A stretch of DNA of 64,000 nucleotides. Origin: Tilletiaria anomala UBC 951 (lineage: Eukaryota > Basidiomycota > Exobasidiomycetes > Georgefischeriales > Tilletiariaceae). Below, piece by piece: positions 21,342 through 29,693 of this stretch. The position numbers and the translations under genes are program-made. The stretch covers positions 62,001 through 126,000 of the forward strand of contig NW_013546983.1 of NCBI RefSeq assembly GCF_000711695.1. The letters run 5' to 3'. Position 1 is the stretch's first letter, and every line of letters starts with the position of its first letter. The notes under the pieces were generated by a model. That model was not told where the DNA came from, searched no databases, and saw only the letters and a program-made list of their open reading frames with translations.

Positions 21342-22556
21342 ATGGCGTTCACAGACCCCCTTGTCCTCGGGCTATCTGGCCTGGTCGTCGCCCTGTCAGC
21401 GGCGCTCTTCTTCAAGACCGCAGCGCCGGGCACTCGTCCCTCTTCTTTGCCTGCTGGTCAGGCTCAGGCCAGCAGCGCTGCGCAGTCGTTATCATCGGGC
21501 AAGTCCAAGAAGAAGAAAAGTAAGAAGCCGAGCTCGTCGACTGTCGGGGCCGCAGCGGAAGACAGCGGTCTCGCGAGCAAGCTCAAGGGCACAAGCCTGC
21601 CTGGTGGCTTCACTTCCGATGCAGGATCAGATATATGCACTGCTGAAGGGGAGACGAGCATCTCGAAGAAAAAGCAGGGCAAGGGCGGCAAGCAGTCTGC
21701 AAACAAGGGAAGCAAGCAAGCAGTTCAAGAACAGCAACGAGAGGCTCAGGCAGCCCGAGAATCACAGAGCTATGCGCAGACGGCAGCAGTGAGAGTGCAT
21801 AATGTGCAAATCACCTCAGCATCCTCTCAATCGAACGGCCATGGCAATGATGCATCAAACCCGCCTTCCCATGACGATCCATCTGCAGTGCAAGAGCACG
21901 CGGGAGCATGGCCGGACGTTGCGGCTTCATCTAGCGAGAACTCGCAAGTAGAATATGCTCCAGTATCTGCAGCGCCAAAAGAAGCGGAATGGGAAAGCGT
22001 TTCTTCCTACAGCAAGAAGGCCGCACGTCCACCCTCATCTTCCGGCGGGTCGGTCGCGTCGGTCCAGCTTGGCAACAGCCTTGGTGCCGGCGGCAGCTCT
22101 GCACCTGGGAAGTTCGCATCGAAGAACCCATTTGCTCTGCTGAAGGAACAGTTGCTTGATGCGACCTCGAATTCGACTTTATCAGGCGGCAACACTGCGA
22201 AGGTTCTCAGCATTCCAGCAACCAGCAGCAGCAGCTCCTCGGCCTCCCGGCCGACTTCTAGCACTTCGAATTCGCGCGCCGGCGCCGGCGCTGCCTCCAA
22301 CGCCAGCAGCGGTAGCAGTGCAATGTCCAAGAAGCAGCGGCAGAACGCGGCGCGGCGCGAGGCGCAGAAAGCGGCCAAGGCGGATGTGGAAGCAGCGCGC
22401 TTGCAGGCGCTCGCTCAGCACAAGCGCCAGCTGGAAGCGGAGCGGATCAAGGACTTCTTCAGCAAAGGTGCTGGTGTGGGTCGTGGGGGTGCAGGAAGCG
22501 CTAGTGGGGGTCAGAAGGCTAGTGTCAATCAGCAGGGCCATCTCGTATGGGATTGA
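21342..22556 (+). CDS. N-terminally membrane-anchored, Ser/Ala-rich conserved fungal protein
   Basis: Single exon, 404 aa. ATG at 21342 follows the GA-rich leader and opens MAFTDPLVLGLSGLVVALSA, a single hydrophobic segment of about 20 residues that can act as a signal anchor. A Lys run (SGKSKKKKSKK) follows, then a long low-complexity Ser/Ala/Gly region. The C-terminal ~70 residues form a charged helix (SKKQRQNAARREAQKAAKAD onwards) ending KASVNQQGHLVWD. The NPFALL segment, the KKQRQNAARREA helix and the terminal GHLVWD resemble conserved parts of uncharacterised fungal membrane proteins. No enzymatic motif is seen. A role at the ER or a similar membrane is an inference from topology only. 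Confidence 0.75.
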   Translation: MAFTDPLVLGLSGLVVALSAALFFKTAAPGTRPSSLPAGQAQASSAAQSLSSGKSKKKKSKKPSSSTVGAAAEDSGLASKLKGTSLPGGFTSDAGSDICTAEGETSISKKKQGKGGKQSANKGSKQAVQEQQREAQAARESQSYAQTAAVRVHNVQITSASSQSNGHGNDASNPPSHDDPSAVQEHAGAWPDVAASSSENSQVEYAPVSAAPKEAEWESVSSYSKKAARPPSSSGGSVASVQLGNSLGAGGSSAPGKFASKNPFALLKEQLLDATSNSTLSGGNTAKVLSIPATSSSSSSASRPTSSTSNSRAGAGAASNASSGSSAMSKKQRQNAARREAQKAAKADVEAARLQALAQHKRQLEAERIKDFFSKGAGVGRGGAGSASGGQKASVNQQGHLVWD

Positions 22557-22787
22557 TTGAAGATATTGAGGCATATGGCCAACATGTACCAGGACATTCA
22601 GGCAGTCACGCCCACTGCAACGTATCCAATACTCAGTGGGCAATCTGCTGATCATTGCAAGTATATTAGTGCATTGCATCACTACGACAGCCAATGCAGT
22701 CATCCATTCATTTGCTTTACACCGTCGTGTCTTGCCCTGCGTGCTCTATTTTACAGTCGCAAAGTGATTTGAAAGGAAGCCGGCATG

Positions 22788-24347
22788 TCATGCGACTACC
22801 TTTTGGAGCCTCTCGCACTGCTCGAGCACCGCGCGCCGGCTCGTGCCGCCCACCGCGTCTCTGCGCTCGACGCTCTCGTCAAAGCTCCACACCTGCATGA
22901 CATCCTGCTCAAACTTATCGCTGAGGCCCTGCAGGTCGGCCAGCGTCAGGTCCGTCAGTTGGCACTTGCGCTCCTCCGATATGCGCACGGCTGAGCCCGA
23001 GATGTGGTGTGTCTCGCGGAAGGGGATGCCCTTGCGCACGAGGTATTCGGCTAGGTCCGTTGCGAGCATGTCCGGGGTCAGCGCCGCGCGCATCTTTTGC
23101 GGGAAGATCTGCAGAGCACAAGGATGGCATTTGTAAGGCTCGCGATGTCACAGGACATGACTCGTGCAGAAAAATGGCACTGCTGTTGCTGCTCCTTACT
23201 CACTGTCATCGTGGACAAGACCCCCGTAGCAATTTTGAGACTGCGATCGACCGTTTCGACAGCATCAAAGAGCGGCTCCTTGTCCTCTTGCAGGTCCTTG
23301 TTATACGTTGAGGGAATACCCTTGAGCGTCATCATGAACCCAGACATCTGGCCGAAGACCCTGCCCGACTTGCCGCGCAGCAGTTCTAGCGAGTCTGGGT
23401 TCTTCTTTTGCGGCATGATCGAGGAGCCGGTCCTATCGAGAGATGAAAGAGAGATTCGGTAAGGATAGGTGTGACAAGGGTCAGCATTGCTGGGGTACGC
23501 ACGAGTAAGCATCGCTGAGCTGGACAAAACCAAACTCTGAGCTTGAGTAAATGATGAGATCCTCTGCCATCTTGCTCATGTGCACCATTGCAAGGGAGGC
23601 CCACATGAGAAATTCGGCAACAAAGTCTCGGTCACTGACGCTGTGCATGCTGTTCGTGCCGACAGAGTGGAAACCGAGGTCTTTGGCGATGGTGTCCCTG
23701 TCAAGGCCGGCGAATGGGTTGCCTGCGAGTGGTCCGGAGCCGAGGGGTAAAACTGAGATGCGCGGAATGAGGTCGCGCAGACGGAGGAGGTCTTGTGAGA
23801 AGTAGGTCGCGTGCGACAGGAGGAAGTGAGACCATCGGATCGGCTGGGCGCGCTGCAGATGTGTGTATCCAGGCATCAGGTGGTCCACCTCTGATTCGGC
23901 GCGCTTGATCATGACGTCAAGCAAACCTCTCAGGGAGGTTTCGATGCCGTGTACAACGTCCATCATCCACAGGCGCATGTCGGTCGCTACTTGGTCATTC
24001 CGGGAGCGTCCAGTGTGCAGTTTACCGGCGACAGGGCCGATGAGCTCCTTCAATCGCCTCTCGTTGGCCGTGTGAATGTCCTCGTCGTCCTCTGCGATGA
24101 CGAACTTGTCCTCCTTCCACTCCTTGCCGACGGCGTCGAGACCGGCAATGATCTGGTCCCGCTCGTCCGGAGTGAGGATCTTGCAGCCGACCAGCGCCCG
24201 CGCGTATGCCTGCGAGCCGCGAATGTCTTGCGCCCACATACGCCGGTCGTATGAGAGCGACTGGTTGTACTCGTGCATAAGTGGGTCCGTCTTCCCCGTG
24301 AAGCGGCCGCCCCAGAGCTTCTGCTTGGTAAATTCGGTGCCAGACAT
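22788..24347 (-). CDS. ARG4: Argininosuccinate lyase
   Basis: Three exons: 24347-23503, 23432-23204, 23108-22788; 464 aa, the normal family length. ATG at 24347 ([18 protein letters not shown]) matches the usual start; a longer upstream reading has no support. Catalytic and signature blocks: [59 protein letters not shown], and the fumarase-superfamily loop [20 protein letters not shown], whose first two residues are split by intron 1. The enzyme cleaves argininosuccinate to arginine and fumarate, the last step of arginine biosynthesis, in the cytosol. It is divergent from the RsfS/Rrg9 gene (330 bp) and convergent with the membrane-anchored protein, whose stop is 231 bp away. Confidence 0.96.
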
Positions 24348-24677
24348 TTTCGCAGATCGCGGCTTGATGCTTGTGCTGTACAAAATGTGAGTTTTGCTTT
24401 GACTTGGATGATGAGCCCTGCGAAGGAGCCTGAAAGATGTGTTATATACGAGTTGCAGAGTGTCGACGAAGATGCTTTTGAATGTTGTGATGGCCAAGAA
24501 GAGTCTTCGCAGTACAAATCCGGTTCAATGTGATTCTACTCCATCACATTCTTCTTTTCTTGCTCTGCGCTTCATGCTACACAAATCACACCCAGATGAC
24601 CTTGGTCTTGGTCGAGCTCAAGCAACTGCAGGAAGAGCCGATCGTCTCTCGCTCGGGTGCACGAACGTTCTGTAGAA
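24348..24677. promoter_or_regulatory. Divergent promoter region ARG4 / RsfS-Rrg9 gene
   Basis: A 330-bp gap between two start codons. No gene inside. Possible Gcn4-type elements were looked for by eye (TGACTC-like) and none was convincing. Confidence 0.35.
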
Positions 24678-26274
24678 ATGATGACGACTCGAGGCTCTCG
24701 CTCGGCCGTGTGCCAACTGTGTCGTCAACAAGTGCTGGGCCAGCGCGGGCTCACCACCGCCTCTATCCCTTACAAGGCCGCTGCCTCGTTCACATCCTTC
24801 TGCGACGCCAAAGGCAAGCAGCGACAAGCAGCGCTTTGCGTAGAATGGAATGGACGGTGTCGCTCCGCAGCAGTGTCCTCGTTCAGGTCGCTGTCAACAA
24901 GTCATAGAGTTGCTTCCGCCGAAAAGCCGGAGAGCAGCAGCAGCCAGTCGGCAGTCCCATGGTTCATGGAAGATGAAGTCGTGTCACCGCCGTCGATAGA
25001 TGCAGAAGACGCTATTGCAGACGATGCAGAAGCGTCATTGTCCATTATCAGCCCAAGACCAGAATCAAGCACACTACCCATTCAACTTGAACACCTGTAC
25101 GAGCTGCTCACACATGGCAGTGCCGCTGCTCTCGTCGCAAGGCCGCACACCGCTTCTTCTCTGCCGTACTCTTTCTCTTCTTCCGAATACGAGCTGGAAG
25201 ACTCTAAAGAAATCGGTGATGCGTCGGGACCGATAAGGTCGCCCATTCAATTCATCCATGCCAAAGCTATCTCCCAGCACGATGCATGGTGCGACTGGAT
25301 CGTTGTCCTGGAGACGAGAGGTAATACGGTCGGTCTTGTGAGAAAGCTCGCCCTTGAAGTTGGCGACTATGTGAGTTGATTTCCCAAATCCTACTATCTC
25401 TGAGAGGCCTTACTGATCGTGGCCGTATCTTCTCTCTCTGTGTAATATCTCTGACCTGCAGCTACGAAGCACTCGGCCCCCGCATACATTAGACCCTGCA
25501 GCCTCTTTCGTTGCCAGCCTCGTGTCCACTACTTCCGCTGCAGCCTCGACCGCGTCAACGATATCAGAGACTTGCAAGCATGTCCCAGCCGAAGTAGCGG
25601 GCACGGCATGGCGACCGCGCCGCATCCTGACGCGGGAAGCACAGTCCGCCTTGCGTGTGCTGCACGCGTCGGACCCGGAGGGATTCTCCCTGCCTCGCCT
25701 CGCTGCCGAGTTCAAGATCAGCCGCGAGAGCGTGCGGCGGATTCTCAAGAGTGGACGGAAGATCCCCGGCGCCGAAGCGCACGCTGTCGCTGCTCAGAGC
25801 AAGTGGACGCCGGACGTGGCGGCAGAGGAAAGACAGCTACGTAGGGCGCTCGAGAGGCGGGAAGAGAAGCGGCGCGTGTGGATGGAAGGCGAGGAGCAGC
25901 AGATCGAGGAGCTTCGCCGGAAAGTGAGAAGCGGCCTGATGGATACTGACACTTTGAAGGATGATTCACCAACGCGGGCACGCCAAGAAGAAGAACTGGT
26001 TGAGGATGCATACGCCCATCAGGACGGGCAGAGCGCGAACAGTAAAAACTTGTACAAGCACCCTGTGCGATACGAGGGCATGCCTCACTCCGCAACAAAC
26101 GTTGGCGGCGCAGCTGCGCGGCGTGCTACTCGTTCGCAAGGCGAAGGTAATTGGTGCATGGTAGATGCCGGTTGGTGCGTCGTGCATGTCATGACTCCGC
26201 AAGCGAGACAGCTTTATGAAATTGAGAGCATCTGGGAGGACCAGATGCGCGAAGAGGCATATCCTTCCGTGTGA
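24678..26274 (+). CDS. Mitochondrial RsfS (Atp25 N-domain/MALSU1)-type protein with embedded neugrin/Rrg9 domain
   Basis: Two exons: 24678-25370 and 25462-26274; 501 aa. The first ATG (MMTTRGSRSAVCQLCRQQVL) starts an Arg-containing, acid-poor leader consistent with mitochondrial import. PWFMEDEVV at ~residue 94 and the helix IQLEHLYELL (~135) match the approach to the RsfS domain of fungal Atp25. WCDWIVVLETRGNTVGLVRK (~204-222) fits the first RsfS strand and helix, and NWCMVDAGWCVVHVMTPQAR plus QLYEIESIW (~460-490) fits its last strands (bacterial pattern W-x-L-x-D-x-G-x-x-V-V-H-x-x-x-x-x-x-R-x-x-Y-x-L-E-x-L-W). Between them, ~281-345 reads WRPRRILTREAQSALRVL, then FSLPRLAAEFKISRESVRRI and LKSG, the neugrin/Rrg9 helix-turn-helix, followed by a charged coiled-coil-like helix. 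Both parent families act on the mitochondrial large subunit or its rRNA. Convergent with the next gene, 62 bp between stops. Confidence 0.82.
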
Positions 26275-26336
26275 CAGCGCACATTTCCATTTTAATGCTT
26301 GCGTACATATCCTGTTCCTACGAAATAAAAAGTTGC

Positions 26337-28743
26337 TCAATCGCGAGAGAGAAGTGCCTGTCCCTTGACCTTTCCGTCTCCTTCATTCATTTTTGCACTC
26401 CTCGCACCAAACTGAATTGCCCTTTTCCTGCGCTCGGCGGTATCCTGCAAGCCGAGCAAGCGCGCTACATCTCGCAAGACCATCTTGTCACCTATTCCTT
26501 CTCCCAAGGGGATATTGGCCTTTTCGGCAGCAGGAAGGCTGCAAGCGAAAGTCACGACGTTGGTCGCAAGGAATGGGTACCGCGCTTCTCGGCCAGTGCA
26601 CGCGATCATGCGATCGTCTCGACCTAGATTTCTTTCGGGAAGGCGATCCAAATCGAGTTGCAGCTGCGGAGCAGAGCGCGTCCCGCATCAAATAAAGTCA
26701 GGTTTACTGGAGCATGACAAGAGAATGAGGATGGCGTAAATAAGACATACTTCTTTGGTGAGGCCAGACCATCCTTCCTTGGAATAAGCCGTCCTATGCC
26801 TGGCGTACCCTCCAAACAGCTCGTCGGCTCCGAGGCCACTGAGAAGGACGCGAGCTGGAGTCTCATATACTGCCGCGCCGGGGTTTGCCGCAGAGTCACT
26901 GGCTGTAGTCAAAGGAGAGTAGGACACGCCTCGCCCATGGGCTGCGAAATGCAAGGCCGCAGCAATGCTCAAGTCCATCTGTGCATCATTAAAGAAGACT
27001 GTAAAAATATGCACCAAATAATGCCTCTTCGAGGCAGCGTGTGCGCAACTCACGACGGTCGCATTGGGCCACATCTTTTCCACGATGCCACCTTTTCTGC
27101 TCTTGTACTCCTGTGACGGTACATTCACTTGTACGAACACCCACTCCCGGCTGGGTGCCAGTCTCTGCAGTTCTGCGAGTGCTTCAAGACCCGTCAGGCG
27201 GTCAGGTGTGTCGTATGGCCCTCTCTTCAGCTGTGCGACGGAAGTCAAACTTGATTTGCAGCAGCCAGCAATTTTATCGTCTTTCGTACTATTAACCTTT
27301 CCTCTCTTCGACTGATTGATCGTACTGCGCCTCGACAGCTCCGTCTCTTGCGCCTTTAAGCTTCTAGGGTTCTCGAAAGCTACATTGATTAAGTCGATTT
27401 GTTCTTCAGGTGGGAGATGAGCATGCGCGAGCAATGCAAGTACGGTGCAATCCAAGCCGCCGGAGAATAGCAGCGCTGTAGAGCATGTCGACGAAGAATG
27501 TGACCCAGAAACAGAAGAAGCGGTGCGACACTGAATGGGTGGCAAACGACTTGCGACAGCCGTTTTGAGCTCAGTCAAAAGATTCTCCGCATTTTGTTTC
27601 CTCTTGTCTGACCGTTGTTGTTGCATGCTAACGGGGTCTTCGCTGGGGCCGGCGGATTGCACGCAGCGCCAATCCGGCCTTATTCGTGGCCAAGGCTTCG
27701 ATTCGGGTTCTGAATGAAGGGTGAGAAGGAAGTAGGAGCTGGTTGGGACTTCTTCCAATCGATTTGTGAGCTGTATGTCTGCAGTATTAGGAGCCGTCGA
27801 TTCTCCATCAGTACTTTCGACCGCAGCAGGTTCACGCACACCGTGCGAGCCTTCAGAATCAATCCTAGCGAAGGTCCTTACTACTGCTTCCGTGGAGCAA
27901 GAGCACAAGAGAAAACCATGATCGCCAGCGAAGGATGAAGAATTGAGAGAGACTCGAGGTGTGTGAAGCAGTGACCGTCGACCGAGCATGTCACGACCGT
28001 AAAAAATGCGGGCTCTGCTAGGCTGGCAGTGAAGTGTATGTATGAGTATCGGGTTTTCTGATATATAGAGCTTTCTTTGGGCACTCACTTCGATTAGCAC
28101 GAATGCGAATGGGCCTTCGACCTCATCGAGGATAGAGGCTAGCACTTCATGGGCCATGGGACTTGGCCCTGTTACCGATACCTGCTTCTCGCACTCTTCG
28201 AGAATATCCGTGAGCGCTTCGAAGATAGCTTTCCCGTCATTTTCACCGTTCCAAACTCGTTCAAAAAGCTCCTTAATCCGGCGCTCGATGAAATTTGCAC
28301 CCTTTTTCGAGTTCTTGGCGATCGAACATGGCTGATATTGCTTGCGCTGTTCGAAAATTTGACCGTTCCAGGCGAAATATAGATTGTGTTCTGGCGAAAA
28401 GAATGGTTGTGCGGTCTTACTTGGTCCACGCAGGGCCAGGACTGATGCGCTCAGCCGAGCTTGCCACACAGCAGTTGTGGACGAGGACGCAGATGAAGCG
28501 GGTGTTGGAATTGACACAGTGACTGTCTCAGTAATGTCCGGGCCTGGAATTCATCGAGGAGTGTACAACCGCAATGGCACGTGAGAATATGCATTGAGAT
28601 GGTAGAAGTACGGCACGTAGTAAAGACGCACCTCTGAGAGCATTACATGCTACAAGATCATCTTCCCATTCAAGCTGAGGATCAGGTGGGACATCGCCGC
28701 AATTGCCTTGCAGGCGCCGCAGTACGAGGGTGATGCCGCACAT
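26337..28743 (-). CDS. Asparagine synthetase domain-containing protein (ASNSD1 type)
   Basis: Five exons: 28743-28632, 28543-28089, 28022-27054, 26978-26751, 26663-26337; 696 aa. The product begins MCGITLVLRR, so Cys2 can be the N-terminal nucleophile of a class II glutamine amidotransferase. RIFYGRDMLGRRSLL ends that domain. The C-terminal synthetase-like half has the ATP pyrophosphatase loop ALLFSGGLDCTVLALL, then ARVLLSGLGADELFGGYARH, RLPERNLGRDDRMIACTGRE, ARYPFLATNVV and the ASNSD1-type ending RAIQFGARSAKM. Compared with true asparagine synthetase, spacing and ending fit the ASNSD1 family, whose reaction is not established. Introns 2 (28023-28088, 66 nt) and 3 (26979-27053, 75 nt) are multiples of three without stops, so unspliced readings stay open; family alignment argues they are removed. 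Confidence 0.9.
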
Positions 28744-29693
28744 TTGATCCTTTTTGCAACTACTTTCAACAGCAGGGAGACACACGAGGCATAATACCCT
28801 TCCAGAAAGTTCTGCTCAGAGCCGAAGCAGGCTCTGTGTGCGAAGTCGTAGAAGCAGCAGTGCGAAGTACGAATGAATGTCGATGGCCTGACGATGGTGA
28901 AGCGTGTTCGAATTGTCTCCGGTAGTAAGCTGTATTTTCAACTAGAAGCCGTCTCAACTATTTTGGCCTCAACTAACCCAACATGCGCAAATCGGGGTAA
29001 TACGCATCTCATCACCAGTAAGACCATGCAAATCCGGGTTTCTTAGTCAAGGATCCTGGGGTTAGAGCTCGAAGTTGCCCGTCTTTTCCCGCACATTTTT
29101 TGAAACCTCCTTTACATCCTGAACCTCTGGGCCTGTCGAGGGTATTAGCAAACGGGATTGACAGATTGGCGCCTGAAAACTAGTCCCCATTCTAGATTGG
29201 GATCGCATGTCTTCATCTTGAATCTCGTCAATGACAATGATGGAAAAATGACAGTAGACTGCGGAAAGCAGCGGCTCAAAGGCCTGTAGTTCCGCCGAAG
29301 TCAAGAATTTCGTGTAGATCTCGAGCGTAATCTATCATCGTCTGGGCAAGATAAGAGCGCATTTTGCAGCAAAGCCGTTGCTGGACCTGCTTAGTATTGA
29401 AAAGTAAAAAGCGAGGAGAATGCAAAATCAGGGGGATATGATGTCTGTTCGCTTTTTTCGGTGCAATTGAAAAATGCTGTTTTACATTCCACGATATGCT
29501 GAGTTTGATTCACTTCGCACTTCTATTTTCAAATCCTTGACCTAGAGTTGACGACCTCGCTCGTTTGCAGCGACCTTCAACTCCCGCCATCCTTGCTAAT
29601 TAGACGAGCAACCCACGGCAGTGAGCTCGTTTCTTTGCACGGGCAATCGACGAAAAAAAAGACCATTCTTCATCCTTGCACAAGCTAGGAAAG
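28744..29693. promoter_or_regulatory. Divergent intergenic region ASNSD1-type gene / UTP11
   Basis: A 950-bp gap. On the minus strand 29324-29062 is open for about 85 codons after an acceptor-like TAG, reading LTSAELQAFEPLLSAVYCHF and onward, but it starts without ATG and matches no family I know. It may be a terminal exon of an unrecognised small gene. The rest (29330-29600) is comparatively A+T-rich and shows no coding character. Confidence 0.35.

Follow-up and report, generated by a model that had tools for sequence, protein, structure and literature searches.

Can one protein carry an RsfS domain with a neugrin/Rrg9 domain nested inside it, and what would such a chain do? The question arises from a 64,000-nucleotide stretch of the Tilletiaria anomala UBC 951 genome (contig NW_013546983.1, positions 62,001 to 126,000; this whole stretch is the window), in which an earlier note had placed a neugrin/Rrg9 helix-turn-helix (HTH) within the RsfS domain of a 501-amino-acid (aa) protein. 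T. anomala is, by taxonomy look-up, an exobasidiomycete of the Georgefischeriales, in the Ustilaginomycotina. Translation of 24678-25370 joined to 25462-26274 on the plus strand did give 501 aa, identical to the annotated protein K437DRAFT_274110 (P0001), whose UniRef name begins "Required for respira". The nested protein is real and conserved, and all of its parts come from known families. That the domains are nested rather than fused in tandem, as the note had claimed, is supported by profile searches, profile-profile comparison, two AlphaFold2 models and homologues from three classes. No description of an RsfS[Rrg9] fusion was found in the portions of the open-licence literature that were covered.

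Profile searches, which the earlier note had proposed as a check, returned both families above their cut-offs. The Neugrin profile PF06413 matched aa 283-339 (31.7 bits; cut-off, 24), and the RsfS profile PF02410 matched aa 432-489 (38.2 bits; cut-off, 21.6), covering profile positions 60-98 only. When the full-length alignment A1 was turned into a profile and compared with solved structures, RsfS/MALSU1 chains were likewise matched through the C half only. Five homologues were stripped of the insert, and each was set against one control with a shuffled N half. With the real N half, the PF02410 match extended back to profile positions 19, 22, 36, 15, and 21, longer in all five cases, whereas with the shuffled N half it began at position 60 or 66 and was longer in none. 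The scores with real and shuffled N halves were 45.6/38.2, 39.4/30.1, 44/39.9, 41.6/30.8, and 39.7/34.0 bits; the T. anomala protein lacking its insert scored 45.6 bits over profile positions 19-98. TIGR00090, the NCBIfam equivalog profile for RsfS, gave 34.9 bits, under its cut-off of 56.9. As the domain is interrupted, we classed the protein as a variant with an RsfS fold and not as an RsfS equivalog.

An AlphaFold2 model brought both RsfS halves together in one fold, predicted to be the complete RsfS/MALSU1/Atp25 fold. Using VIA-align, all 110 residues of the human MALSU1 chain 7odr_u were aligned to the model (110/110, 2.6 Å), as were 102 of the 103 residues of a bacterial RsfS chain, and Atp25 was likewise aligned to the RsfS part. 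A second AlphaFold2 model was built on alignment A4, which shares sequences with that of the first, so the two models are not independent. In the predicted fold the N half supplies a helix (135-146), two strands (190-194 and 207-213), and a second helix (218-234) that ends 3 residues beyond the intron, and the C half supplies the PVRYEG strand, the WCMVDAGWCVVHVM hairpin, and C-terminal helices. The packing of two RsfS halves against each other, for which the earlier note had suggested structure prediction, was thus seen in the models and its split domain stands, but the extents it gave (aa ~204-235 and ~460-490) were too small. The two parts run from about 134 to 234 and from about 432 to 497, and the second begins at the PVRYEG strand, aa ~432, instead of at ~460.

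The residues that would contact the ribosome could also be located. In E. coli RsfS, W77, D81, R95, and L103 are predicted to lie at the L14 interface, according to the available text of PMC3400551. By spacing, W462, D466, R480, and I488 are the T. anomala equivalents, and in the 44-sequence alignment A4 the W and the D were each present in 44/44 and the R in 41/44. This retention bears on the possibility that the RsfS part is a structural relic or platform and that the protein acts as Rrg9 alone, in 21S/16S rRNA stability. Such a reading would fit the modest, C-terminal-only Pfam score for RsfS and the NCBIfam score below the equivalog cut-off. However, the predicted RsfS fold is complete, the W and D predicted to contact L14 are invariant, and no second RsfS was found in the T. 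anomala genome, and we consider it improbable that the RsfS part has lost its role.

The insert was identified as Rrg9/neugrin by more than one comparison. Yeast Rrg9 and human neugrin (NGRN) have a common core of WxxQKxAL, WxPxKxLS, HTH, and ESVRRILKSKWxP. Comparison of the insert with stand-alone Rrg9-type proteins by hhalign gave 99.6% and an E value of 4e-24 over 77 columns that include SKWxP and WxxQKxAL, and PF06413 matched 19 of 22 homologues at E<=0.001; the neugrin/Rrg9 HTH reported by the note was recovered at the place it had been assigned. The five stand-alone Rrg9-type proteins retrieved (214-419 aa; one lacking a start) have no RsfS match, in contrast to the nested protein. A sequence search for a solved Rrg9/neugrin chain with E. 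cymbalariae Rrg9 found none, the best match (E 0.77) being unrelated.

The Neugrin match is overlapped by one to PF12824 (MRP-L20/mL58; aa 258-361), absent from the earlier note, that scores slightly higher (33.1 bits; cut-off, 30.4), which is what would be seen if the inserted HTH were the mL58 domain, that of a structural mitoribosomal protein, instead of Rrg9. mL58/MRP-L20 has a related three-helix HTH, but it carries FGCSPTFVRIAAPAP where the insert has FKISxESVRRILKSKW. Moreover, mL58 is encoded separately in T. anomala, by a gene at C70:33347-33805 with a far better score (88.4 bits; 91.2 bits in a repeat scan, with no Neugrin match at E<=1), against which the insert is a partial PF12824 match and not the genome's best. 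Stand-alone Rrg9-type proteins also match MRP-L20 (four of five at E<=0.01, one above the cut-off). Given the separate, better mL58 gene and the stronger Rrg9 match, we rejected mL58 as the identity of the insert, a reading to which we would give hardly any weight. We also set aside the idea that Rrg9, with its similar HTH, is a placeholder for mL58: entries 6ywv and 9hlz list mL58 chains alongside Atp25, and mL58 is therefore already present at that stage. The mL58 gene lies within one 489-aa open frame (L003:1498-2967, minus strand) with unrelated-looking upstream sequence, which is perhaps two genes or exons sharing a frame.

Relatives were surveyed for the same architecture, as the note had suggested. 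Three homologue searches gave 22, 58, and 22 matches among those listed, the last with the insert alone as query, and together 73 distinct proteins, to which the motif counts below refer; the searches were sensitive to shared 5-residue words only, and the queries behind the first two contained both domains, favouring fused proteins. Among the 22 matches to the insert alone, 17 had a precomputed RsfS domain and 5 did not. The order N half, HTH, C half was present by motif in 55 of the 73, and equally under stricter spacing. The C half occurred without the full set in 11/73: nine have their start within the insert or shortly ahead of it, one was missed by the motif, and one has a damaged frame; the C-half motif was missing in 7/73, including the five stand-alone Rrg9-type proteins. 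Named carriers include members of Tilletiaria, Meira, Exobasidium, Acaromyces, Microstroma, Sympodiomycopsis, and Tilletia, of Malassezia, and of Ustilago, Sporisorium, Thecaphora, and relatives of these last three. The taxonomy of seven carriers placed them in the Exobasidiomycetes, Malasseziomycetes, and Ustilaginomycetes. Since carriers occur in three classes, the nested architecture is probably ancestral to the Ustilaginomycotina, as judged from these sequences.

The same homologues bear on whether the protein is an annotation artefact, two neighbouring genes joined over the intron. The intron does separate the first RsfS half from the insert, and the nine short homologues with a C half start in or just before the insert. 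Four of these (P0054, P0055, P0056, and P0058), however, open by eye with what seem to be the last residues read from an intron, which here too lies immediately ahead of the L of the insert, and so look like unspliced readings. In P0003 and P0019, also by eye, translation appears to read through an intron at this residue. Because six homologue translations seem to show an unspliced or partly read intron there, the position of the intron looks conserved. Furthermore, the C half and the insert share one open frame in T. anomala, the RsfS fold needs both halves, and most homologues retrieved have all parts in one protein. We therefore rejected the two-gene artefact, whose chance we put close to nil.

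Stand-alone RRG9 or RsfS genes elsewhere in the genome, which if better matching would have refuted the earlier note's reading by its own terms, were not found by profile searches. In a six-frame search of the 18.4-Mb assembly at E<=10, this gene gave the sole PF02410 match and the sole PF06413 match. Nor was there a match at that threshold to PF13929, the M domain of Atp25; a six-frame search can miss intron-split genes, and the same type of search did find mL58 and several class II synthetases.

Atp25, MALSU1, and bacterial RsfS are among the nearest known counterparts. The N-terminal domain of Atp25 is the RsfS of fungi, and its N. crassa chain (6ywv_n) was recovered at 125.4 bits with an Atp25-like stretch as query. 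Atp25 has a C-terminal M domain and no Rrg9 domain, and its alpha2-beta loop is far shorter than the T. anomala insert, and the T. anomala protein, with no PF13929 match found in its genome, is Atp25-like in its RsfS part only. MALSU1 and bacterial RsfS align along the whole chain with the T. anomala RsfS part and have the W, D, and R contact residues in common with it. Nearly all residues of their solved chains belong to the common fold, leaving no comparable inserted domain. In N. crassa Atp25 (6ywv_n) a basic stretch lies between the segment read as helix alpha2 and WICVNLG, a strand equivalent to WCMVDAG. On that reading, each of the two lineages would have an extended alpha2-beta loop, Atp25 with tens of extra residues and the T. 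anomala protein with about 200, and this loop may be a general site for RNA-contacting additions in fungi.

What might the joined chain do? Atp25 and MALSU1 are placed on uL14m of large subunits that are still immature, and would there keep the small subunit away (available sections of PMC7560712 and PMC8067846), and NGRN belongs to a module without which 16S rRNA is depleted (PMC8067846, same sections). The functional link that the earlier note proposed between the two families would fit these roles in large-subunit maturation. With moderate confidence, we favour a single-chain assembly factor for the mitochondrial large subunit. In this proposal the two Atp25/MALSU1-type RsfS halves would fold together, and the RsfS body, by analogy with MALSU1, Atp25, and bacterial RsfS, would dock on uL14m and so keep the small subunit from the immature large subunit. 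The Rrg9/neugrin HTH and the charged helix would project from the alpha2-beta loop of this body, and the arm would most likely touch large-subunit rRNA or an early-module protein. uL14 docking and Rrg9 function would thereby be delivered jointly. We infer mitochondrial import, uL14m docking, rRNA contact, and a step shared by Rrg9 and RsfS; as both factors are present in one nested chain, they likely serve one maturation stage.

Several observations weigh against this proposal. The RsfS N half alone gave no Pfam RsfS match, and one of the five score gains on removal of the insert was small (4.1 bits). A Foldseek search with the whole 501-aa model returned no match at E<=0.001, so the structural claim rests on VIA-align and the second model; at E<=10 there were 153 matches, headed by a MALSU1 chain (E 0.028). 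Placement of the RsfS domain relative to the Rrg9 domain was of low confidence in the models (pTM, 0.45 and 0.55), and the fourth predicted contact position is loose (I/V/M/L/F in 39/44; Q or R in 5/44). The protein is known here from its sequence and predicted models alone, and the fusion of two genes points to a link in function in a statistical sense only. In addition, the accessible part of PMC2768984 describes yeast delta-rrg9 cells as lacking functional mitochondrial DNA, with mitochondrial translation that was scored as wild-type-like following cytoduction, which is no simple pointer to a ribosome assembly defect.

A further fusion in Ustilago and its relatives bears on whether joined factors must share a step. 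In 19 of 58 proteins among the matches listed (P0031-P0043, P0045, P0047-P0050, and P0052), the nested unit was accompanied by PF00152, as in U. maydis UMAG_04607 (1047 aa) and a Thecaphora frezii protein (1176 aa); the 13 of the 19 that are named all come from smut fungi of the Ustilago kind. The C-terminal part of the U. maydis protein matched the asparagine--tRNA ligase (AsnRS) profile TIGR00457 (359.4 bits; cut-off, 342.6). UMAG_04607-type proteins thus contain a homologous RsfS[Rrg9] unit and, unlike the T. anomala protein, an extra C-terminal AsnRS behind a presequence-like linker. All 19 linkers contain the motif R-x-[FLY]-[SAT]-[TS]-[TSC], mostly as R-x-F-S-T-S or R-x-F-S-T-T, preceded by a segment in which 8-12 residues are basic and 1-5 acidic. 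We take this motif to resemble fungal presequence cleavage sites. It was defined after inspection of 17 linkers, with other 140-aa blocks of the same proteins as the control, and it occurred in 4/93 control blocks and in 13/19 N termini (first 80 aa); counted over whole blocks, those of the linkers and N termini among them, it occurred in 36/131. Of the 13 T. anomala loci compared, the one that best matches AsnRS lies on another contig, C62 (L006; 47% identity over 335 aa, 249 bits), on which the genome-wide profile search found no RsfS match. Four Malassezia proteins (P0007, P0015, P0064, and P0066; 360-439 aa) are named asparagine--tRNA ligase with no synthetase domain listed, a name probably carried over from the Ustilago proteins in which the fusion is present.

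In yeast, Atp25 is made as a composite precursor that is cut during import to give the RsfS part and the M domain, and its fusion has been suggested to prevent cytosolic off-target effects (PMC7560712, in the text available, citing Woellhaf 2016 for the cleavage). Given the presequence-like linker and this precedent, the likeliest account of the AsnRS-bearing proteins is a composite precursor, by sequence and by analogy. In that case these forms would add a second lineage with a precursor of the Atp25 type, within the subphylum to which Ustilago and Malassezia belong. Both cases lend some weight to the view that fusion only ensures co-import and equal dosage, with RsfS and Rrg9 independent in the matrix, or, in a variant citing the rationale given for the Atp25 gene fusion, that it keeps RsfS off cytosolic ribosomes: an AsnRS behind a presequence-like linker in 19/19 is a fusion with no obvious common step in this very lineage. 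A single cut could separate a tandem fusion, but would undo the nesting only at the price of dividing RsfS, and the order of the nested parts is kept in named species of three classes and in 55 of the 73 proteins retrieved. We regard independence of the two domains as unlikely, and continue to favour the single-chain assembly factor.

More tentatively, the nesting could preserve in covalent form a physical partnership: in fungi and animals at large, Rrg9/neugrin would work on the immature large subunit beside the uL14-docked RsfS factor, the Ustilaginomycotina would have fixed the two in a single two-armed checkpoint protein, and the precursor in Ustilago and its relatives would also yield AsnRS. 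If so, that precursor would release mitochondrial AsnRS at an internal presequence, and a single mRNA would hold ribosome assembly and one tRNA-charging activity to a 1:1 ratio. The protein is in effect a Rosetta-stone prediction: separate factors of baker's yeast are joined in one smut-related gene, which suggests neighbouring jobs. NGRN function is called largely unexplored in a review (PMC8067846, available sections), and RRG9 is listed among proteins of unknown function in the accessible part of a yeast survey (PMC7453639). Rrg9 nested in an RsfS factor offers a concrete, testable guess at the step and neighbourhood of neugrin/Rrg9.

The features of the gene are collected in Table 1. The intron sits on the border between the RsfS N half and the insert, and the composition of the N-terminal 40 aa is what a mitochondrial presequence would show.

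Table 1. Features of the nested RsfS[Rrg9] gene (positions in the window)
Feature	Position	Strand	Basis
Whole gene, coding sequence with one intron, nested RsfS[Rrg9] protein, 501 aa	24678..26274	+	Spliced translation; identity to K437DRAFT_274110
Probable mitochondrial presequence, first 40 aa	24678..24797	+	Composition: 5 R/K, 0 D/E
RsfS N-terminal half, aa 134-231	25077..25370	+	AlphaFold2 model; alignment to MALSU1/RsfS/Atp25; score gain without insert
Intron, 91 nt, GT-AG, phase 0, Y231/L232, end of RsfS helix alpha2	25371..25461	+	Spliced translation
Insert in RsfS alpha2-beta loop, aa 235-431, ~197 aa	25471..26061	+	Alignments and model
Rrg9/neugrin core, three-helix HTH with FKISRESVRRILKS, aa 283-339	25615..25785	+	Pfam Neugrin; profile-profile comparison
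Long charged helix following HTH (predicted), aa 350-393	25816..25947	+	AlphaFold2 model
RsfS C-terminal half, aa 432-497	26062..26259	+	Pfam; model; structural alignment

An Rfam search of 22000-29000 gave no match. The gene is flanked on both sides by genes on the opposite strand: at 23484-24350 (minus strand) an argininosuccinate lyase-like gene (Lyase_1, 266.7 bits), and at 26691-28550 (minus strand) one that matches Asn_synthase (35.8 bits) and, below threshold, GATase_7.
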